46,938 nt of DNA, from assembly GCA_013334325.1 (NCBI GenBank), contig JAAXXT010000018.1, positions 1 through 46,938 on the forward strand, given 5' to 3'. The stretch comes from Erysipelotrichaceae bacterium. Lineage in GTDB: Bacteria > Bacillota_I > Bacilli_A > Erysipelotrichales > Erysipelotrichaceae. Below, in pieces: positions 4,175-23,518 of the stretch. Position numbers and translations under genes: made by a program. The first letter of the stretch is position 1. Each line of letters starts with the position of its first letter. The notes under the pieces are model-generated. The model saw nothing but the letters and a program-made list of their open reading frames with translations. It had not been told where the DNA came from and did not search any database.

Positions 4175-4248
4175 GGTTCCTTAGCCAAGTGGTAAGGCAA
4201 TAGACTGCAACTCTGTGACCGTCGGTTCGATTCCGACAGGAACCTCCA
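4175..4248 (+). tRNA. tRNA-Cys (anticodon GCA)
   Basis: The cloverleaf folds with acceptor GGTTCCT/AGGAACC, anticodon loop CTGCAAC and T arm GTCGG/CCGAC. The encoded CCA is included at the 3' end. It is the first gene of a ten-tRNA array. Confidence 0.95.
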
Positions 4249-4251
4249 AAA

Positions 4252-4338
4252 GGGGATGTGGCGGAATAGGCAGACGCAACGGACTTAAAATCCGTTGATG
4301 GCAACATCGTGCGGGTTCAAGTCCCGCCATCCCCACCA
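4252..4338 (+). tRNA. tRNA-Leu (anticodon TAA)
   Basis: Class II tRNA with a long variable arm, acceptor GGGGATG/CATCCCC, anticodon stem ACGGA/TCCGT around loop CTTAAAA, and an encoded CCA. It starts three bases after tRNA-Cys. Confidence 0.95.
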
Positions 4339-4375
4339 CTTTTTATTTTATTGCCGGTATCCAAGCACCACTTAT

Positions 4376-4452
4376 GCGCCCATAGCTCAATTGGATAGAG
4401 TATTTGACTACGGATCAAAGGGTTGCGGGTTCGACTCCTGCTGGGCGCGCCA
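4376..4452 (+). tRNA. tRNA-Arg (anticodon ACG)
   Basis: Acceptor GCGCCCA/TGGGCGC, anticodon stem TTTGA/TCAAA around loop CTACGGA, encoded CCA. The A at the wobble position would be edited to inosine to read CGN codons, which implies a tadA gene elsewhere. Confidence 0.95.
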
Positions 4453-4473
4453 GCTTAAATTGTATATAAAACT

Positions 4474-4550
4474 CGGGATGTAGCACAGCTTGGTAGTGCA
4501 CTTGATTTGGGATCAAGGGGTCGCAGGTTCGAATCCTGTCATCCCGACCA
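4474..4550 (+). tRNA. tRNA-Pro (anticodon TGG)
   Basis: Acceptor CGGGATG/CATCCCG, anticodon stem CTTGA/TCAAG around loop TTTGGGA, encoded CCA. Confidence 0.95.
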
Positions 4551-4565
4551 GTTTTAAAACTTTGT

Positions 4566-4642
4566 GGCGGGATAGCTCAGTTGGCTAGAGCAATCGGTTC
4601 ATACCCGGTCGGTCGTCGGTTCGAATCCGACTCCCGCTACCA
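4566..4642 (+). tRNA. tRNA with CAT anticodon (elongator Met or lysidine-modified Ile)
   Basis: Acceptor GGCGGGA/TCCCGCT, anticodon loop TTCATAC, encoded CCA. It lacks the three G-C pairs and the unpaired 1-72 position of an initiator. It differs clearly from the neighbouring Met tRNA at 4647, so it may be the tRNA-Ile2 whose C34 is converted to lysidine by TilS. That assignment is inference. Confidence 0.85.
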
Positions 4643-4646
4643 TCGT

Positions 4647-4723
<77 letters not shown>

Positions 4724-4734
4724 GTTCTTGTAAT

Positions 4735-4823
4735 GGAGGAATACCCAAGCGGTTGAAGGGACTGGTCTTGAAAACCAGCAGATGTGAAAGCATGCGTGGG
4801 TTCGAATCCCACTTCCTCCGCCA
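4735..4823 (+). tRNA. tRNA-Ser (anticodon TGA)
   Basis: Class II tRNA with long variable arm, acceptor GGAGGAA/TTCCTCC, anticodon stem CTGGT/ACCAG around loop CTTGAAA, encoded CCA. Confidence 0.95.
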
Positions 4824-4848
4824 TTCTTACTCGAAGTTCATTATTTAT

Positions 4849-4925
<77 letters not shown>

Positions 4926-4948
4926 TTTTATGTCTAATGATTAATTAT

Positions 4949-5025
<77 letters not shown>

Positions 5026-5026
5026 T

Positions 5027-5102
5027 GGTTCTGTAGCTCAGTAGGTAGAGCACTTGACTGAAAATCAAGGTGTCGCCGGTTCAATTCCGGCCGGAACCAC
5101 CA
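5027..5102 (+). tRNA. tRNA-Phe (anticodon GAA)
   Basis: Acceptor GGTTCTG/CGGAACC, anticodon stem CTTGA/TCAAG around loop CTGAAAA, encoded CCA. It starts one base after the second initiator tRNA and closes the array. Confidence 0.95.
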
Positions 5103-13930: not shown

Positions 13931-14686
13931 ATGGAACATCAAAAGTGTTTAGAAACAGCCATTTTAGCGGGAGAGATCTTGATTAGAAGTGGGGCAGAAA
14001 CTTACCGCGTTGAAGAAACGATGCGTTATATCTTATCTGCGATTCCCTCTGTGATGAGTGAGGCTTTTGCCTTACCTACGGGGGTTTTCGCCAGTATCTT
14101 AGTTGAGAATCAACCAGTGATTACCTTAGTAAAACGTATCGATAAACGAGGTATCAACCTAAGTTCCATCTCTGAAGTCAATGTGATCTCAAGAGAAGTT
14201 GTTTCTTCAGTAATATCGATGAATGAAGCGTATGATCGTTTATCTTCAATCAAACCTAAGGCGTATTCTCGCACGATACATAATCTAAGTATTGCCTTTT
14301 TAATTGCGGGTTTCGTACTTCTGCTTAACGGAAGCTTATTTGATTCATTGATCTCTTTGATCAATGGGATCTTTTTGATTCTTGTATTAGAAGGCGCAAG
14401 AAAAATAGAAAGCAATCCATTTATATCGACCTTAGTCGGTGCGACAGTGATCACCATCGGCGCCATCTTTTTAAAATCGATCTTTAAAGCCATCGATACC
14501 GATGTGATCACGATCGCATCGATGATGCCTTTGGTTCCAGGAACAGCCATCACCAATGCGATACGAGATACCCTGCAAGGGGATTATATGTCGGGTAGTG
14601 CGAGAGCTTTAGAAGCCGTTGTGATCGCGATCTCTATTGCGATAGGTGTCGCTTGTGGTCTAGGACTCCTTGGAGGTCTATTATGA
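13931..14686 (+). CDS. ThrE-type threonine/serine exporter, large subunit (PF06738-like)
   Basis: 251 residues. The N-terminal half is the ThrE cytoplasmic domain (opening ILIRSGAETYRVEETM, then RIDKRGINLSSISEVN). Four or five membrane segments follow from about residue 120, with the conserved MMPLVPGTAITNAIRDTLQGDYMSG loop. It is thought to export small amino acids together with the next gene, with which it overlaps by four bases. GGAG precedes the ATG, and a TATAAT at 13904-13909 may be the -10 of its promoter. Confidence 0.88.
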   Translation: MEHQKCLETAILAGEILIRSGAETYRVEETMRYILSAIPSVMSEAFALPTGVFASILVENQPVITLVKRIDKRGINLSSISEVNVISREVVSSVISMNEAYDRLSSIKPKAYSRTIHNLSIAFLIAGFVLLLNGSLFDSLISLINGIFLILVLEGARKIESNPFISTLVGATVITIGAIFLKSIFKAIDTDVITIASMMPLVPGTAITNAIRDTLQGDYMSGSARALEAVVIAISIAIGVACGLGLLGGLL

Positions 14687-15105
14687 TCCTTCAAGTACTA
14701 GGTGCAATATTTGGGGTGATCTGGGGATCCATCTATTTAGAAGCTCCTAAGAAACATTTACTTATGGGAGGTCTTATCGGTGGTGTCGGTTGGTTAGCGT
14801 ATCTCATCGCATTAAAATCATTTGATTTAAGTTTATCTACCTTTATCTCAGGGCTCATCATCGCTATCTTATCTCATGGCTTCGCTCGTAAAGTAAAGAC
14901 CCCAGTCACGATGTTTCTTATCCCAGGATTTCTTCCTTTGGTTCCAGGTGTATCTTTATATCACGCCGTCTATGAGTTTATGAAGGGCTCATCCTTAGGT
15001 AATGGTTATCTTCTAAGTACTTTCCAAGTGGCAGGTATGATTGCCTTAAGTATCTTCGTCGTAGATTCATTCGTAAAAATCTTAGAAAAACAAATCAAGA
15101 AATAA
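14683..15105 (+). CDS. ThrE-type threonine/serine exporter, small subunit (PF12821-like)
   Basis: 140 residues with four membrane segments and the loop IPGFLPLVPGVSLYHAVYEFM, a short counterpart of the VPGTAITNAIRD loop in the preceding protein. Split ThrE systems of this type are common in Firmicutes, and both halves are needed. The ATG at 14683 overlaps the upstream stop (ATGA) and has GGAGG at 14672-14676. A GTG at 14653 in the same frame lies inside the upstream gene and was rejected. Confidence 0.88.
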   Translation: MILQVLGAIFGVIWGSIYLEAPKKHLLMGGLIGGVGWLAYLIALKSFDLSLSTFISGLIIAILSHGFARKVKTPVTMFLIPGFLPLVPGVSLYHAVYEFMKGSSLGNGYLLSTFQVAGMIALSIFVVDSFVKILEKQIKK

Positions 15106-15106
15106 A

Positions 15107-15137
15107 AAAGGATGTCTGAGAAGACATCCTTTGTTTA
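15107..15137. terminator. Bidirectional terminator between the ThrE and heliorhodopsin genes
   Basis: AAAGGATGTCT and AGACATCCTTT form an 11-bp stem with a GAGA loop. A and T runs on both sides suit both converging transcripts. Confidence 0.88.
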
Positions 15138-15147
15138 AATTCTAAGA

Positions 15148-15927
15148 TTAAGGCTGCATGGCTCCAAATAGAACCAACCAAGCCAAGATCGATTTAGCAG
15201 CTAAGCTCAAGATGATATAAGCACGTTCTCCATAGAGATAATCTTTCCATTTACCAACGCGGAAATATTGAAGTAGCATATTGATTGGGAAAGTGTTGAA
15301 GGCTACGAAGTAGGTCCCAACGATGGCCCATACGAACCAAGGTACCATATCGAAATTACCTGTCCCAAACATATACAATAGAATGGCGATCCAAGGAGCG
15401 ATACCAGCTACTGATCCCCAAATAAATGGTCCCCAGTTGACTTTTTCCTTCGTTGAACCAGCATTCAATAGTTCCATATCTAAACCAAACAGATTCATAG
15501 CGGCATTGACTGTAAAGATCAAAACCAAAGAAGCGATATCATAGACTCCAAACAAGGTCGCGATCAACACGATCATGATGGATGAACTCAAGGCATATTC
15601 AAACCAACGATACTTATTGATGCCTTTCTTCAAATCATTGGTGTATTTATCTCCACTGAGATAAATAAGACCATGAGCTGCAGCTGAAATCAATAAGAAG
15701 GAAGCAACCAAGACCCCGAAAGGCAATTGGAAGAGTTCTCTTACGGCAGGTTCCAGACTTCTCGTTACTGGATTAAACGCCAAGTAGTATTGGACGATGG
15801 TAGGTTGGAATTGTCCTAACTTTTGAATGACAGAAGAGGCAAGAAACAACATCGTAAGACCTTGAATCAAATGAAAGAATCCCATAATTAAATTAAAACG
15901 TCTAAGCTTTTTAAAAATGATGTCCAT
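15148..15927 (-). CDS. Heliorhodopsin
   Basis: 259 residues and seven membrane segments. Family blocks are nearly intact: RWFEYALSSSIMIVLIA in TM3, FTVNAAMNLFG in TM4 and GERAYIILSLAAKSILAW in TM7. Lys245 is the expected retinal Schiff-base lysine and Glu110 the counterion; His19 and His85 match the two conserved histidines. Heliorhodopsins bind retinal, sit inverted relative to other rhodopsins, have slow photocycles and are usually not ion pumps; a sensory or photoprotective role is discussed. The ATG at 15927 has AAGGAG upstream; an open frame extends 67 codons further but overlaps the pilB-like gene and is not conserved-looking. It lies 121 bases after that gene, on the same strand. Confidence 0.95.
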   Translation of the reverse strand: MDIIFKKLRRFNLIMGFFHLIQGLTMLFLASSVIQKLGQFQPTIVQYYLAFNPVTRSLEPAVRELFQLPFGVLVASFLLISAAAHGLIYLSGDKYTNDLKKGINKYRWFEYALSSSIMIVLIATLFGVYDIASLVLIFTVNAAMNLFGLDMELLNAGSTKEKVNWGPFIWGSVAGIAPWIAILLYMFGTGNFDMVPWFVWAIVGTYFVAFNTFPINMLLQYFRVGKWKDYLYGERAYIILSLAAKSILAWLVLFGAMQP

Positions 15928-16023
15928 TTTTAGTATTCTCCTTTTTAGTAAACCTACTTTACCATTATTTTTTAAACAACCCAAACAAGATGCCCAACTA
16001 TTAAGTGACTTAAGCAAAACACA

Positions 16024-16046
16024 ACAAAAGTGCCTTATGGCACTTT
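16024..16046 (-). terminator. Hairpin between the PilB/GspE-like gene and heliorhodopsin
   Basis: On the minus strand AAAGTGCC and GGCACTTT form an 8-bp stem around ATAA, two bases after the ATPase stop codon. The following sequence is T-rich but interrupted (TGTTGTGTTTT), so termination may be partial and some readthrough into heliorhodopsin is possible. Confidence 0.65.
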
Positions 16047-16048
16047 GA

Positions 16049-17707
16049 TTAATTTTCAACGTTGTATAAGATACGTAAGGCTTCTTCGACAGTAGTGGTC
16101 CCACTTTGAACATAGGCCATGACTTCATCTCTTAACATAGGGATCTTTTTTTCTTTAGCGTAGTTTCTAAGTTCTTCTAAAGAAGCATTCTTTGAGATAA
16201 GGTCTTCTAAGGCATGATCAATCAAGATGGTCTCAAAGACCGCTAAACGGCCACTATAGCCTGTATGATGACATTTATCACAGCCTTCACCGACATAGAC
16301 TTGTTTTAGATCTGTTTTTAATAGACGAGCTTCAGTAGAAGTCATTTCTACTTTCTTCTTACAATGGATACAGACCCTTTTAACCAAACGTTGGGCAATG
16401 ATACAGACAAGAGAAGAACCTACTTTAAAAGGCTCTACACCCATATCTACTAAACGAATGACAGAGGATAAGGCATCGTTGGTATGTATCGTAGAAAGCA
16501 CCAAGTGACCTGTGATGGCTGAACGTATCGCGATCTCAGCGGTTTCAGTATCTCTTATTTCCCCAATCATGATGATGTCTGGATCTTGACGTAAGATAGA
16601 GCGTAATCCAGCTGCGAAAGTCAAACCTGCTTTTTGATTGACTTGGACCTGTGTGATGCCTTCAAACTTACGCTCAATAGGATCTTCTACGGTCTTGATG
16701 GCTTTGGTTGGGACAGCCAATCGAGCTAAGATTGAATAGAGGGTGGTTGTTTTTCCACTACCTGTAGGACCTGTCACCAAGATGATCCCATGAGGAACCA
16801 AGATGGCTTTCTCGATGGTGGATAGGGTAGAAGGAGAGATTCCTAATCCAGTTAAGGAATACTCGATGTTTTGATCAGCACCCAATAAACGCATGACGAT
16901 GTTTTCCCCATAAGGCGTAGGTAAAGTAGATACACGAATGTCTATTTTTTTGAAATCGTGATTGAATTGGAAACTACCATCTTGAGGTAAACGTTTCTCA
17001 GCGATATTGAGTCCAGACAAGATCTTGATACGGGTAGAAATCAATGAATGTTTGTCTTTATCGAAATCCACATGAGTGGTTAGATCCCCATCGACTCTAA
17101 ATCGTACGCGTGTATAATCAGCTTCAGGTTCGATATGGATATCAGACGCATTGACTTTATAGGCATCGATGATGAGATTATTGACCATTCTAACGACGGA
17201 AGAGGTTTCTACAGTGGCTTCGTTTTCTTGTTCATCGCTTTCGTTGATGAGATCTTCCCCAAATTCATTTTTCTCTGTTCTTTTAGAATATAAACGTTCA
17301 ATAGCTGAATCGATCTCAACACGAGTCGATAAAACAGTTTTGATCGATAAACCTATGATCATACTAAGATCTTCAACGGCAGAAATATTGAATGGATTGC
17401 TTGTGGCTAAAGTTAAGGTTCCTTCTGAAACTCTTAAAGGACACATTTTATATTTTAGGGCTAAGTTTTGAGGAAAAGCTCTAATGGCTTCAGGATTAGT
17501 GTTATTGGTTAAATTATCGACAAAATCCATCTTGAGACTTTTAGCCAGAACCCTTAAGACATCCTTTTCTTTAGCGAATTGATGATCTAGGATGATGTAA
17601 AAAGTCGCCTGGCCGGTTTCTTTTTGGATGAGATTTACTTCTTCGAGTTGAGCCTGAGTGATGATCTTATCATTCACAAGCATTTCTTCAAGCGATACAT
17701 GCTTCAT
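16049..17707 (-). CDS. pilB: Type IV pilus assembly/type II secretion ATPase (PilB/GspE)
   Basis: 552 residues. An N-terminal MshEN/GspE-N domain (about 1-140) precedes the hexameric ATPase core. The core has Walker A GPTGSGKT at 313-320, Walker B region DPDIIMIGEIRD at 375-386, His box TGHLVLSTIHTND and a zinc tetracysteine (C446, C449, C476, C479). It powers pilin assembly. An in-frame GTG six codons upstream (17725) would place the GGAG inside the coding sequence, so the ATG at 17707 is preferred. It is the last gene of the pilus-like operon, about 100 bases after the PilO-like gene. No PilT retraction ATPase is present. Confidence 0.94.
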   Translation of the reverse strand: MKHVSLEEMLVNDKIITQAQLEEVNLIQKETGQATFYIILDHQFAKEKDVLRVLAKSLKMDFVDNLTNNTNPEAIRAFPQNLALKYKMCPLRVSEGTLTLATSNPFNISAVEDLSMIIGLSIKTVLSTRVEIDSAIERLYSKRTEKNEFGEDLINESDEQENEATVETSSVVRMVNNLIIDAYKVNASDIHIEPEADYTRVRFRVDGDLTTHVDFDKDKHSLISTRIKILSGLNIAEKRLPQDGSFQFNHDFKKIDIRVSTLPTPYGENIVMRLLGADQNIEYSLTGLGISPSTLSTIEKAILVPHGIILVTGPTGSGKTTTLYSILARLAVPTKAIKTVEDPIERKFEGITQVQVNQKAGLTFAAGLRSILRQDPDIIMIGEIRDTETAEIAIRSAITGHLVLSTIHTNDALSSVIRLVDMGVEPFKVGSSLVCIIAQRLVKRVCIHCKKKVEMTSTEARLLKTDLKQVYVGEGCDKCHHTGYSGRLAVFETILIDHALEDLISKNASLEELRNYAKEKKIPMLRDEVMAYVQSGTTTVEEALRILYNVEN

Positions 17708-17804
17708 ATTAGACTCCTGTGTCACTGCCCAATTTGTCCCACTAATATTAGTTTACAACAACTTTATCTTAAATAGGCTTTTGATGTTCATTTACTTAAT
17801 ATGC

Positions 17805-18452
17805 TTATTCTGTGAATTTGATTTTTTCAATTGAATAGATATCAAAGACCAACTCAGCTGTTTTATCATTCATATCATAAAGTGAAGAGGATAGTAGGAT
17901 AGAGACATCCAATTGATCGATGGTCGATAAGAGCTCAGTATAGTCTTCAAATGATACTTCTATGATGTAGGTGATCTGTGTCTTCAAGAGTTGAGATTCG
18001 GTAAGCGGTAATTCATCGGTAGGCATCGTAATATGATTGTAGATGTCTACCAATTCTTTGATCTTATAGGTCAATTGTTCATTGAGCTTTAAGGTAGTTT
18101 GAGGAATAACGACGATCGCATCTGCGACTTGGAAATAAGTGATCTTTCCTTGATGTTGATTGAGTAAAGGTATCAAATAAGCCTCTGTTTGGGCAGGACT
18201 AAGGATATCAAAGAATTGATCGAACTTCTCTGCAGCCATAACTTTGGCTTCACTTTCCGTAGCGATAACGGTATCTAGTGTTGGTATCGTCTGTTGGGCA
18301 AGCAAATATTGTGTTTCTAAGAGTTGAAGTTCACTCTGTTTATTGCTTAGATTGGTACTCATAGGAATCCATATGAAGGTCCAAAAAACATAGATCCCAA
18401 TGAATAAGCCCAACCACTTAAGATACATGATGTCTTTTTTAGTGATTCTCAT
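17805..18452 (-). CDS. PilO-like pilus assembly protein
   Basis: 215 residues with a single membrane segment near residues 12-32 after a short basic cytoplasmic tail, a coiled stretch at about 35-60, and an alpha/beta C-terminal part. This is the layout of PilO/GspM. Sequence similarity is weak by eye and the call rests on layout and position: it directly follows the PilM-PilN gene, which it overlaps by 14 bases. It would form part of the alignment complex that links the cytoplasmic PilM ring to the membrane platform. GGAGAAG precedes the start. Confidence 0.72.
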   Translation of the reverse strand: MRITKKDIMYLKWLGLFIGIYVFWTFIWIPMSTNLSNKQSELQLLETQYLLAQQTIPTLDTVIATESEAKVMAAEKFDQFFDILSPAQTEAYLIPLLNQHQGKITYFQVADAIVVIPQTTLKLNEQLTYKIKELVDIYNHITMPTDELPLTESQLLKTQITYIIEVSFEDYTELLSTIDQLDVSILLSSSLYDMNDKTAELVFDIYSIEKIKFTE

Positions 18453-19914
18453 TAGAGTCTTCTCCGTTCAAAGTTAAATTAATGTCTGATGTATAGGATT
18501 TCATATTGGAATCATATTGATAACTGGTATAAGATACTTGGCTAAAGGAAGAGACATCGCTTAAAGCCAAGACATATTCATGGATTAGACTAGGATCTGA
18601 GGTAGATATCGATAAGGTTATGATGTTGTTTTCGAAACTGATACTTTCTATTTCTATGGTATTTGGTTTGATTGTTAATAGATCGATGATTTTGAGATTG
18701 GTGTAACGAGGAATACTATCGAGTACTTCTTGGATACTATCGAGTTCATTGGTAATTTCGTTTAGTGAGGCAATATTGGCTTTCAGTTGAGCGATGTTCT
18801 CCAAGGCTAACACGATATCTGGTCGAGTAAGGTAAGTATTGATCTTCTTGATGTTTGAATTCACGATGTTGGTTTGGATCGTGGCGATAATAACGGCGAA
18901 AAGAGCAGCATAACCTAAACCAAAAGCCAAGGAATTATAGATCGCATCAAAATTGATCGTATTGCTGCTTCTAGAGTAGAAAGCATTATAGGCATTGATC
19001 AGATTGATGTCTTTCTTACGTCGATGTTTTCTTGAGAATAAGGCTCCTAATCCATAAACTAAGTCTGTTTTAAACTCAAAGTGTTTTGTATTGGTCAATA
19101 AACTAGGAGCACTTAAGATACTTGTTTCTAAACTGAGTTGTTCACTGAGTTGTTCTTTCAAGCTTTCGATCTTAGTATAAGATCCAAATAGAATGATTTT
19201 ATCGATGGCTGAATTTTGACCCAGTGATAAGGAAAACTGAATCATCTTCTCTATATTATCAACACTGGTTTGAATACTGAGATTCTCATCGACATCGCTT
19301 AAAGCAGCGATCTTTGTGGTTCTATAGTAAGAGTATTTACCTCTTTCAAATAAATATTGGCGAATGCTTGATGTTCCTATATCTGCAACTAAAGTATTCT
19401 TATCTTTGTTGAGAAGTTTTGTGATGTCGATGTATTTCTGTAGACTATTTAAAGAAACATCGATGGAGAGGATCTTAAGATTAGCTTTTTCTAAGAATTC
19501 TACGATTTCATTGACGGTGCTTGCTAATACTGCAGAAACTAAGATCTTATGCATTTTCTTGTCATCTTTGATGGTATCGCCTAGGATCGCATAATCCATC
19601 AGATATTCATTGCTTAGATTAAGTGCGTTTTTTAGCTCATGTCTTATCATGGAGTCTAGATATCTTGGACTTGCTTTAGGTACGATCATATCTCGATAAA
19701 TAACACTGGAGGTATTCATACAAAGCAGTACTTTATCTTCTTGAAAAGAATGGATCGTTTGGGTTAAGGATAAAGCCTGTTCAGGATGACTGATAAAACT
19801 CTTCCAAGATTCATCAAATTCGATGATCTTAGATTCTTTTAATGTATAGGCATTGAGTCGAGATTCTGCTCGTATTAGACTAAGGGCATTGTCTCTAATT
19901 TCGATGATGAGCAT
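18439..19914 (-). CDS. Fused PilM-PilN pilus assembly protein
   Basis: 491 residues. About 1-295 look like PilM, an actin-fold ATPase (VADIGTSS at 176-183; ILFGSYTKIESLKEQLSEQL near 241-260). At 301-308 comes KDINLINA, which resembles the INLLP motif by which PilN binds PilM. It is followed by one membrane helix at about 326-347, a coiled coil at 350-400 and a ferredoxin-like C-terminal part as in PilN. Normally these are two proteins; here one polypeptide carries both. The ATG at 19914 has GAGGT upstream. It overlaps the PilO-like gene and follows pilC by 17 bases. Confidence 0.82.
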   Translation of the reverse strand: MLIIEIRDNALSLIRAESRLNAYTLKESKIIEFDESWKSFISHPEQALSLTQTIHSFQEDKVLLCMNTSSVIYRDMIVPKASPRYLDSMIRHELKNALNLSNEYLMDYAILGDTIKDDKKMHKILVSAVLASTVNEIVEFLEKANLKILSIDVSLNSLQKYIDITKLLNKDKNTLVADIGTSSIRQYLFERGKYSYYRTTKIAALSDVDENLSIQTSVDNIEKMIQFSLSLGQNSAIDKIILFGSYTKIESLKEQLSEQLSLETSILSAPSLLTNTKHFEFKTDLVYGLGALFSRKHRRKKDINLINAYNAFYSRSSNTINFDAIYNSLAFGLGYAALFAVIIATIQTNIVNSNIKKINTYLTRPDIVLALENIAQLKANIASLNEITNELDSIQEVLDSIPRYTNLKIIDLLTIKPNTIEIESISFENNIITLSISTSDPSLIHEYVLALSDVSSFSQVSYTSYQYDSNMKSYTSDINLTLNGEDSNENH

Positions 19915-19931
19915 AGTGGTTTACCTCTTTA

Positions 19932-21113
19932 TTATCCGATCTGATCATAGATTCCAAACATAGGCTGGATTACTGATACAACGATGACTCCAATGACAAC
20001 TCCCATAACCACCAACATGATTGGTTCTACAAGGGCCACCATCTTCGTTAAAGCGGTATCTGCTTCTTCATCAAAGTAATCTGCAGTTCTGATCAAGATA
20101 TCACCTAGTGCTCCTGTTTCTTCTCCAACGTTGACCATAGAACACAACATAGGGTCAAAGACTCCCATATCTTCAAGAGCTTGTGAGATGACTTCCCCAT
20201 GAGATACTCTTAAGACCACCTCATCGAAGAGACCTTCAATATAACTGTTGCCTAAGATCTGTGCAGTAGACTGGATCATAGGAATGGTTTGTATCCCACT
20301 TAAGTATAATGACGCAAAAGAACGTGCACAACGTGCAGAGTAGATGGTTTGATTAAGAGGTCCAATAACAGGCATCCTTAAGATAAACTGATCGTATTTT
20401 AAACGGACTGGAGGAAGTCTTAATAGGGCAGCTGATCCAAATACCATAATGATGAGTGCGGGAATATAGATAAACCAATAGCCCGTTAAGAAATGACTGA
20501 TCCCCATAACAAAGGAGGTCAAAGGAGGTAGTTTACCTGGATCAAACATCTGCGTTAAAGTAGGCAAGACAAAGGTCATTAAAAGGATAACGACAGCCGT
20601 TGCGATGACTGCTAAGATGATAGGGTAAGTAGAAGCCCCTTTGATTTTATTTTTTAATTTTTGTTCTTTCTCAAAATGAGTCGACATGAGTAAAAGCGAA
20701 CGTTCTAAGGTGCCACCGATCTCACCCGCAACCACCATATTGATTAGGATATCTGGGAAAGATCCGCCTTGTTTACGCATCGCTACAGATAAGGAATTTC
20801 CTTTTTGGATCTCTTGAGTAAGGTTACTATAGAGTTTCTTTACTTTAAGATCTTTTGTGCTATTTTGAATGATCGTGATACTTTTAAGAATTGAGACACC
20901 TGCGTCGATCATCGCACTCAGTTGACGCGTAAAAATAATCAATTCTTTTGTCTTGATTTTATTTCTGCCTGATTTTGCGACTTGTTTATACTCAACTAAA
21001 AACAAAGATCTTTCTTTTAAAGTCTCATAGATCTCTTCGACATTATCTGAGGCAATGATTTCTGTTTTCTTTGCCCCTGAGCTATTGATGGCGGTTACTT
21101 TATAAAATTTCAT
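19932..21113 (-). CDS. pilC: Type IV pilus/type II secretion inner membrane platform protein PilC/GspF
   Basis: 393 residues, the usual size. Two T2SSF repeats are visible (about 60-185 and 263-385), with the repeated pattern FTRQLSAMIDAGVSILKSI and CARSFASLYLSGIQTIPMI. Membrane segments lie at about 163-183, 210-230 and 363-383. The GEIGGTLE and GEETGALG motifs are in place. It is the platform on which the ATPase acts. The ATG lies two bases after the stop of the PilX-like gene, so the genes are coupled. Confidence 0.94.
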   Translation of the reverse strand: MKFYKVTAINSSGAKKTEIIASDNVEEIYETLKERSLFLVEYKQVAKSGRNKIKTKELIIFTRQLSAMIDAGVSILKSITIIQNSTKDLKVKKLYSNLTQEIQKGNSLSVAMRKQGGSFPDILINMVVAGEIGGTLERSLLLMSTHFEKEQKLKNKIKGASTYPIILAVIATAVVILLMTFVLPTLTQMFDPGKLPPLTSFVMGISHFLTGYWFIYIPALIIMVFGSAALLRLPPVRLKYDQFILRMPVIGPLNQTIYSARCARSFASLYLSGIQTIPMIQSTAQILGNSYIEGLFDEVVLRVSHGEVISQALEDMGVFDPMLCSMVNVGEETGALGDILIRTADYFDEEADTALTKMVALVEPIMLVVMGVVIGVIVVSVIQPMFGIYDQIG

Positions 21114-21115
21114 GT

Positions 21116-22600
21116 TTAGTTTTCCACGATGGGTCCTTCGATGATGTCGGTACTACCAGGTTCATAATCTGTGGTAGTTGTGGTAGGAAAGTCAATTGAG
21201 AAAGGAAAGGTTTCTTTGTCGACTTCAAGATAGGTAACCATCGTTTGAGGGTTAGCAATTTCGAAATAGTCACTGATGAGAGATCCTGATAATACCGCAT
21301 TAGAGTCGATTCTAAGGGTAGCAAAAGGTGCATAGAACAAAGCCCGTTTTATATAAGCATTGGCTGAGAAATCGACTTCATGACCACCAGTAACGATATG
21401 GCCTTTAAAGTTACTGCTTTTGACTTCTACATCGACATTTTCAGCCAACAAGGAACCATAAAACAATTGTAGATTGGAGAAGACTAACTTAGGATAATTA
21501 CCATAATCTCCTTTGGTCACATAAGGGGTCTTGAGATAAAATAGGAACTTAGTATAATCAGGATCAGCAGCTTGACAAGACCCTACAACGTCTCCACAGA
21601 CATTGAATTTAGATCCCATGGTTAAGGTACCTTTTCCATATTCAAAGACCAATAAGAGTCTACCTGTACCTATAACACGAATATTTCCTGATACATTGAT
21701 ATTCTTAACTCTCAGCATCTTTCTTGTCGCAGCGGTTCCTCTTGAACCTAGGTTAACGATTAAAGTCTGTCCTTGAGCGACGACCATGTTTTCCAAATAA
21801 GAATAACCAAAGACATTGATGGTGGCTTTACTGTTCACGAAGGTATAGCTAGGAACCATCGTTGGAGAAGCGGTAGGTATTACCGGATATTTGATGACAG
21901 GAAATATAAAAGGCATATCGACTTCGGTGATTCGATTACCAATACGACTTGAAGTCTTTACATAGGATGATTTACCAATAGGCACAAAAGCCATGGTGAT
22001 TTGTGTTTGAGTTGATTTTAGATCGATCGATGTATTGTCTAATAGATTACTTGCGATAGGGCCAACTACAGTTGAGTTCTGACTACCTATGATCATACCT
22101 CTTTGAGTAAGGATGGCTTTCCCGACAATAAGTCCAGGTCCACCTTGACTATACGCGAAACCTACTTCTTTAGATAAAGTACGTGATATCCCATTGACTG
22201 TACCTGTTGCGGTGATCTTATAAAACATATAGTCGGGGTATTCTTCTGAACCTTCTGAGGCGATGATGCTTAAAACAGCGGAATCAACATCTGTGGTTTG
22301 ATCGAAAGTAAGATCCGTTGGTAATAAGGCAATCTCATTTTCCAGTAAAGTAAAAAGATCTGCAGGATTAGGATTAGAATTCGCTAAGGTGGTAAAAAGT
22401 GAATTGACTTCAGCCATACGTTTATTCAACGAAGATTCCGCAATATAATAAGCTTTAGAATAGTCATTGGTTAATTTAGTATTGTCTGTGTTTTGAATCG
22501 ACATATACACAATCGCAGATAAAAGAATGAACAAACTTAAAAAGGTCAATAAGACAGTCATTAAAGCGATGCCTTTTTTTTGATTTAAGATTTTGTTCAT
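21116..22600 (-). CDS. Large PilX-like pilus protein, possibly beta-helical
   Basis: 494 residues. The N-terminus KKGIALMTVLLTFLSLFILLSA resembles the pilin-like helix of PilX proteins. The extracellular part is rich in beta strands, N, T, S and V. After about residue 320 there are short repeats such as GSLLAENVDVEVKSSNFKGHIVTGG and YAPFATLRIDSNAVLSGSL, with the look of a right-handed beta-helix found in PilX/DUF7305-type proteins. It contains VCGDVVGSCQAADPD with two cysteines that could form a disulfide. A TTG in the ORF precedes the ATG at 22600, which shares one base with the upstream stop and is preferred. It is probably a minor or tip component; the exact role is unknown. Confidence 0.7.
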   Translation of the reverse strand: MNKILNQKKGIALMTVLLTFLSLFILLSAIVYMSIQNTDNTKLTNDYSKAYYIAESSLNKRMAEVNSLFTTLANSNPNPADLFTLLENEIALLPTDLTFDQTTDVDSAVLSIIASEGSEEYPDYMFYKITATGTVNGISRTLSKEVGFAYSQGGPGLIVGKAILTQRGMIIGSQNSTVVGPIASNLLDNTSIDLKSTQTQITMAFVPIGKSSYVKTSSRIGNRITEVDMPFIFPVIKYPVIPTASPTMVPSYTFVNSKATINVFGYSYLENMVVAQGQTLIVNLGSRGTAATRKMLRVKNINVSGNIRVIGTGRLLLVFEYGKGTLTMGSKFNVCGDVVGSCQAADPDYTKFLFYLKTPYVTKGDYGNYPKLVFSNLQLFYGSLLAENVDVEVKSSNFKGHIVTGGHEVDFSANAYIKRALFYAPFATLRIDSNAVLSGSLISDYFEIANPQTMVTYLEVDKETFPFSIDFPTTTTTDYEPGSTDIIEGPIVEN

Positions 22601-23073
22601 CAATAGTTTCCTTCCCTTAGATAGTATGTCAGATGGATGGTGTTGGTTATACCACGTTGGTCTGGGACAGTGACGACCGTCAAGATTAATTTATTTGAAC
22701 TGAGTGTGCTGGTTATGGTTTGAATACTATCTGATATCTCTAGATTATTTCTCGTTAAACTATGTGTGCTTGTATTTAGACAATAAGTTGAATTACCAGA
22801 ACTGATCGTAAATACTAAACATCCAGATACGATGTTGACTTCAGTTGCTTTACGCGTATCTACTTCGAAGGCATCTGAGAGCTGTGTTATTCTATACTGA
22901 TTAAAAATTTGTGACTTTTCATTTGAAAAGTATTCAACACTGGTGACAAAGATCATCACAAGTACTCCACCGATAAGCGAAAAGACAGCCATCGCTATGA
23001 TCAATTCAATCAAGGTAAAACCTGATTTTGGATTTTGTTTATTCAAGGAAGCCGGTCGCATAGAGTGTCTCAT
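22600..23073 (-). CDS. Type IV prepilin-like protein (GFTLIEL class)
   Basis: The prepilin peptidase site SG/FTLIELIIAMAVFSLIGG is followed by the usual hydrophobic helix with Glu5. The remaining 110 residues are a small globular region with two cysteines. It resembles PilW/GspJ or ComGF-like minor pilins. The start is uncertain: ATGs at 23073 and 23061 lack clear ribosome binding sites, and a TTG near 23046 would give a short leader NKQNPKSG, typical of prepilins. It overlaps the upstream gene by up to 35 bases and shares its last stop base with the PilX-like start. Confidence 0.82.
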   Translation of the reverse strand: MRHSMRPASLNKQNPKSGFTLIELIIAMAVFSLIGGVLVMIFVTSVEYFSNEKSQIFNQYRITQLSDAFEVDTRKATEVNIVSGCLVFTISSGNSTYCLNTSTHSLTRNNLEISDSIQTITSTLSSNKLILTVVTVPDQRGITNTIHLTYYLREGNY

Positions 23074-23518
23074 AGAGTTTCAATGGGGAAGACAGGGATA
23101 CATCGTTGATGGTAATGGTGATCTCAATAAAATCTTCAGTTAAGATGCTATCATCTTTGGTTAAGACCAAAACTGTTTGATAAGGAGAGATCGTTTTTGT
23201 ACAAGTAACGACACTACTTGGGGTATTATAAATAATCTCTGACGTAGTGGCGTCTATGGTCCAAGAAAAACCACTACAGGTAAAAGATTCAATACTTACC
23301 AGTTGATATAAAGTATCTGGGTAATTAAGGTTTTTAGATTGATCATAGATCCATTCAATTTGAGTCTGGGCAATCTGTCGAGCTTCAGTAAATTCACGAT
23401 TGATAAGTCCTGTTTTACGTGTTGTTAAAAACACAGGAAAAACAGCACTTACCATTAAAGTAAATAGAAATAAGGCAATTAAAACTTCTAGAAAAGTCAT
23501 GCCCGATTTATTTTTCAT
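23039..23518 (-). CDS. Type IV prepilin-like protein (GMTFLEV class)
   Basis: 159 residues, starting MKNKSG/MTFLEVLIALFLFTLM. This is a short basic leader, a cleavage glycine, Glu5 and a hydrophobic helix, as in PilV/GspI-type minor pilins. The rest is small and beta-rich. It is the first gene of the seven-gene pilus-like operon. The extended -10 promoter at 23535-23543 and AGGG before the ATG support the start. No gene for a major pilin precedes it, so it may itself be a structural pilin or work with pilins coded elsewhere. Confidence 0.85.
   Translation of the reverse strand: MKNKSGMTFLEVLIALFLFTLMVSAVFPVFLTTRKTGLINREFTEARQIAQTQIEWIYDQSKNLNYPDTLYQLVSIESFTCSGFSWTIDATTSEIIYNTPSSVVTCTKTISPYQTVLVLTKDDSILTEDFIEITITINDVSLSSPLKLYETLYATGFLE

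Follow-up and report, generated by a model that had tools for sequence, protein, structure and literature searches.

The heliorhodopsin locus

The window, by which we mean the whole stretch of 46,938 nucleotides that was analysed, is contig 33 of a 1.95 Mb Erysipelotrichaceae genome (G000) that is 98.8% complete, and its reverse strand carries a heliorhodopsin (HeR) gene lying between a type IV pilus operon and a convergent pair of exporter genes. Relatives used throughout are the near twin G001 (Loclat lake MAG CAIXIN01), the Erysipelotrichaceae MAGs G002, G003 and G005, and the La Plata MAG G006. The features that matter here are these:

13931..15105, forward strand: ThrE-type amino-acid exporter pair (PF06738, PF12821), the convergent neighbour of HeR
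15107..15132, reverse strand: intrinsic terminator 3′ of HeR, common to the convergent ThrE gene, with an 11-bp stem (z -4.5)
15148..15927, reverse strand: HeR gene, 259 aa, with H19, H85, E110 and S241xxxK245 (profile matches, PDB match, alignments)
15938..15943, reverse strand: Shine-Dalgarno sequence AAGGAG of the HeR gene, read directly and conserved in G001, G002 and G006
15946..15964, reverse strand: imperfect inverted repeat TGGTAAAGTAGGTTTACTA immediately 5′ of the Shine-Dalgarno sequence, shared by G000, G001 and G002, with a partial copy in G006
16027..16046, reverse strand: strong intrinsic terminator between pilB and HeR, 8-bp stem AAAGTGCC/GGCACTTT, tail TGTTGTGTTT
16049..17725, reverse strand: PilB/GspE pilus/secretion ATPase with an MshEN domain (PF00437, PF05157), a neighbour outside the HeR unit
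16049-23518, reverse strand: type IV pilus operon with pilB as its last gene (neighbours PilM_2, T2SSF, T2SSM, N_methyl)

Elsewhere in the window, ten tRNA genes are clustered at 4175-5102, four of them with a CAT anticodon.

The HeR gene starts at the ATG at 15927, downstream of its clear Shine-Dalgarno sequence AAGGAG; a longer reading of 326 aa in the same frame is unneeded, as it overlaps pilB and the ATG at 15927 is well served. The product matches Pfam PF18761 over its full length (315 bits, E 3.3e-94, cut-off 26.7) and the NCBIfam heliorhodopsin model NF038020 with 289 bits (cut-off 100), and a sequence search of solved HeR structures returns 6is6 (E 5.6e-58), full-length homology to which suggests seven helices with the N terminus inside. 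Among 82 aligned HeRs, gathered with patterns that do not contain the residues in question, K245, E110 and H85 are invariant and H19 is too, except for one gap; the SxxxK motif is S241-K245. The window HeR is under strong purifying selection: where it could be computed, within-genus dN/dS is 0.02-0.09, so the gene is maintained by selection. The original prediction of an intact heliorhodopsin therefore holds, both in the full-length family match and in the retention of the Schiff-base lysine on which it had staked its case.

It had also implied that such a protein is out of place in a fermentative low-GC bacterium, which is not borne out, since HeR occurs in 66 of the 395 class genomes sampled, spread over 10 families; its presence here is thus ordinary, and the window HeR itself is an ordinary, intact new representative of a family already known, in a lineage that commonly has it. 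A degenerate copy with internal stops and its middle part missing is found in G004 (L021 12958-13541, G004:C78), at a position syntenic with the intact HeR genes that G003 and G005 carry.

Because terminators flank the gene, and because a terminator stands between pilB and HeR in G006 as well, HeR is most likely monocistronic; G006 has the same pilB-HeR order and an equally clear terminator at the same place with a different hairpin. This bears on the suggestion that the position of the gene, right after a pilus ATPase, is a lead to its function, for instance through light control of pilus assembly via PilB. The arrangement that invites it, with pilB directly upstream on the same strand, is seen only in G000, its near twin G001 and their congener G006. 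Of the 80 named HeR loci just two, both congeneric (the records of G001 and G006), have a homologue of pilB close to HeR, and none of the other 78 does, G003 and G005 included; the comparison of neighbourhoods that the original prediction had called for thus finds the adjacency not conserved. HeR lies between other genes in G003 and G005 and in yet another setting in G014, and its neighbours vary widely even inside the genus. A published survey of HeR neighbours names no pilus gene in its list (PMC11109279). With terminators dividing the two genes in both species checked, a functional tie between HeR and the type IV pilus is very unlikely, and the hint is removed as a functional lead.

The inverted repeat at 15946..15964 is a possible extended -10 or operator. 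Repeats of this type were not found in G003, G005 or G014, nor before the photolyase or crt genes; a search for an operator common to HeR, photolyase and crt genes found none, the repeat being confined to HeR in three to four congeners.

Retinal supply and carotenoid-type genes

No retinal genes are seen within the window, as the original prediction had stated, and the lack extends to the genome. An RPE65-type carotenoid cleavage oxygenase was found neither in G000 nor in any of 54 HeR genomes (the 9 carriers of the family and 45 further HeR carriers), with positive controls detected. The lycopene cyclase search covered the CrtYcd (PF18916) and CrtY (PF05834) types: CrtYcd is absent from G000, again with positive controls detected, and no full CrtY was found there, the one match being 36 residues of Rossmann motif below the cut-off. 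Nothing in G000 or the 54 HeR genomes exceeds the cut-off for Blh/Brp (PF15461), which is a weaker negative because no control genome matched that model either. The 45 further carriers thus lack both an oxygenase and a Blh over cut-off; one of them, G089, has a CrtYcd cyclase and several have weak PF05834 matches. A weak PF15461 match in a Trichococcus genome (L105) was inspected and proved to be a MalF-like permease.

The genome does carry crtB-like and crtI-like genes on another contig (contig 34), and these are an acyclic-type carotenoid pair. They lie in a carotenoid-type cluster (L013, G000:C34, 3092-8455) with two VTE5/DUF92-like genes, DUF1722 and a tocopherol-cyclase-like gene of family PF14249; a matching cluster is present in G001 (L022, G001:C247, 29-5321), where the PF14249 gene is whole, its counterpart in G000 being broken by undetermined bases. 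Among the nine HeR carriers of the family, only G000 and G001 have a crtB-like synthase. In two other Erysipelotrichaceae loci, L071 (2638-15635) and L078 (2592-15567), HeR itself lies inside a carotenoid region, flanked by a crtI/crtB/VTE5/DUF92 block homologous to that of G000 and by further CrtI-type genes, the region holding a UbiB/ABC1-type kinase and three CrtI-type desaturases.

The puzzle of where this cell obtains retinal therefore stands in one part and softens in another. The genome-wide search for blh/brp, crtY, crtI and crtB that had been proposed recovered crtB-like and crtI-like genes but neither a full crtY nor a Blh, and in nearly all of the 54 HeR genomes, as in G000, neither a lycopene cyclase nor a Blh nor a cleavage oxygenase was detected. 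Since nearly all related carriers share the lack, this species is no special case, missing retinal genes being what is usual, and the retinal question is answered at the level of the genome: no known route was found. It has been published that the HeRs of such organisms take up external retinal, which HeR binds quickly (PMC9296517), so scavenging is not a new idea.

Two other answers may be considered. Many HeR-bearing Bacilli might form retinal or a different chromophore along a pathway not yet recognised, with the PF14249 protein, whose predicted fold is that of polyene cyclases and hydratases, acting on the products of the crtB/crtI-like genes, which we consider improbable. It is also very unlikely that the protein works without retinal or binds a different ligand; the absence from the G000 genome of any detected known retinal-forming gene would be in keeping with this, but the 82 HeRs retain K245, E110 and both histidines, K245 in every one although their carriers lack known retinal genes, which would be unexpected if no Schiff base were made, and the rapid binding of external retinal argues against it too.

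Photolyase and a possible role of the class's heliorhodopsins

The strongest new lead, which goes beyond operons already reported, is a link across the class between HeR and photolyase, an enzyme that repairs DNA with the help of light. In the sample of 395 genomes, 48 have both, 18 HeR only, 17 photolyase only and 312 neither (odds ratio 49), so that photolyase is found in 48 of 66 HeR genomes and 17 of 329 without HeR. Counted by genus, the figures are 27, 13, 6 and 151 in the same order, or 27 of 40 genera with HeR and 6 of 157 without it. The corresponding p-values, 3e-32 for genomes and 7e-18 for genera, are descriptive only because phylogeny was ignored. Within the family and order, a photolyase match occurs in 7 of 9 HeR genomes and in none of 51 genomes lacking HeR; the two HeR genomes without a match are G006, which is 79% complete, and G004, whose HeR is degenerate and whose genome yielded no match to photolyase or to PF14249 when searched for both.

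The association is also physical in places. In the HeR tree, the genes that have photolyase next door fall on separate branches (Trichococcus, Acholeplasmataceae, Anaerolineaceae, L027 and L096), and in nine genomes of the class sample the two genes lie within 350 bp of each other; the HeR-adjacent photolyase of Anaerolineaceae is only 23% identical to that of G000. In G000 itself the genes are not adjacent, HeR being on contig C33 and photolyase on C18. The G000 photolyase appears to be of class II type, its nearest model being TIGR00591 phr2 at 440 bits, below the model cut-off of 550, and it is 35% identical, over its full length, to the photolyase of T. flocculiformis. Its gene lies downstream of genes for a B12-dependent ribonucleotide reductase and a cobalamin adenosyltransferase (L120 4473-8852).

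A further gene keeps company with HeR. PF14249 is found in 33 of 43 HeR genomes and 3 of 27 without HeR, and adjoins HeR in Acholeplasmataceae and crtI in G000; four Acholeplasmataceae loci (L087, L088, L100, L102) have a conserved trio in the order photolyase, HeR, PF14249 protein. The predicted structure of the Acholeplasmataceae protein (pLDDT 85.7) retrieves the pericyclases CghA, Fsa2 and Phm7, AttH and kievitone hydratase in a fold search (Z 19-24), while searching the PDB by sequence with a PF14249-type protein turned up nothing notable. An enzyme that cyclises or hydrates hydrophobic substrates would be a reasonable guess from this pericyclase/AttH/hydratase fold, a shared fold being no demonstration of function. 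No paper naming heliorhodopsin and tocopherol together was found in the literature searched. For HeR biology, the tocopherol-cyclase-like gene offers a new and concrete candidate. DUF1722, in E. coli a neighbour of phr, lies four genes from HeR in L026, L035 and L036.

The link with photolyase points to UV and light protection as the business of the HeRs of the class. Our preferred reading, to which we give a probability of roughly one half, is that the window encodes a working HeR, transcribed by itself, which senses light with scavenged retinal and most likely has photolyase as its partner in a dispersed photoprotection set. The protein would take up all-trans-retinal that other microbes produce (the genome search having found no complete pathway to retinal), is predicted to absorb green light, and would pass the light signal by protein contact to a cytoplasmic partner. 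By analogy with TfHeR of Trichococcus flocculiformis, that partner is most likely to be the putative class II-type CPD photolyase of the same cell, whose gene is on the other contig, and the set may further comprise the carotenoid genes, the tocopherol-cyclase-like enzyme and DUF1722. A freshwater habitat that is at least partly lit would fit: Loclat is part of a dataset on oxygen-stratified freshwater lakes and ponds (PMC8121793).

The main competitor agrees on the retinal-scavenging light sensor and differs on the partner, which would be a transporter, a metabolic enzyme or an unknown protein, the correlation with photolyase reflecting a shared sunlit habitat only. We regard it as a real possibility at somewhat under even odds. 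Published HeR partners vary by lineage, glutamine synthetase, an ABC transporter and photolyase among them (PMC9529153, PMC11109279); even inside the genus HeR has very different neighbours; and as HeR is monocistronic here, its position names no partner. Photolyase as the partner is further weakened by the 18 of 66 HeR genomes without a photolyase match, by the lack of one in the HeR carrier G006 (79% complete), by the separate contigs in G000 and by differences at the three TfHeR residues tested for photolyase binding. HeR-lacking relatives may be mostly dark-living, and a sunlit habitat alone may yield the co-occurrence and is a serious rival to a coupling of HeR with photolyase, but it leaves unexplained the repeated direct adjacency of the two genes in unrelated branches. 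Photoprotection with a photolyase partner is favoured, the odds against a looser association driven by habitat being about even. That HeR is a light-driven ion transporter or channel can hardly be credited: the viral V2HeR3 transports protons (PMC9448325), but no ion pumping had been demonstrated for HeRs as of 2021 (PMC8612252).

Comparison with known heliorhodopsins

The closest characterised system is TfHeR, which binds a class 2 photolyase in vitro and raises repair about 3-fold (PMC9769723). The window HeR is 76% identical to it, with the same Schiff-base lysine, counterion and histidines, and each genome has a photolyase, apparently of class II type in G000, while in neither were known retinal genes found. 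TfHeR, however, adjoins its photolyase and DUF2238, whereas the photolyase of G000 is on another contig, and the photolyase-binding residues E97, R162 and K227 of TfHeR correspond to D93, S158 and R223 in the window HeR. R162 was considered as a diagnostic residue and rejected, since it is not conserved even in Trichococcus, where the position is H in most members. The idea of HeR as a photolyase helper can now be put to the test in another, independent lineage, where natural losses like that in G004 allow comparison.

TaHeR (PDB 6is6) and 48C12 (6su3) are full-length homologues with the same conserved residues, but their identity to the window HeR is much lower (47% for TaHeR) and their hosts differ. 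The Znf-HeRs of Thermoplasmatales (PMC8612252) have a zinc-ribbon fusion that the window HeR lacks, and the photoprotection genes of the window's genome are scattered, whereas theirs are neighbours; with carotenoid genes and photolyase at their side, the Znf-HeRs have a photoprotection neighbourhood like that of the Erysipelotrichaceae loci L071 and L078.
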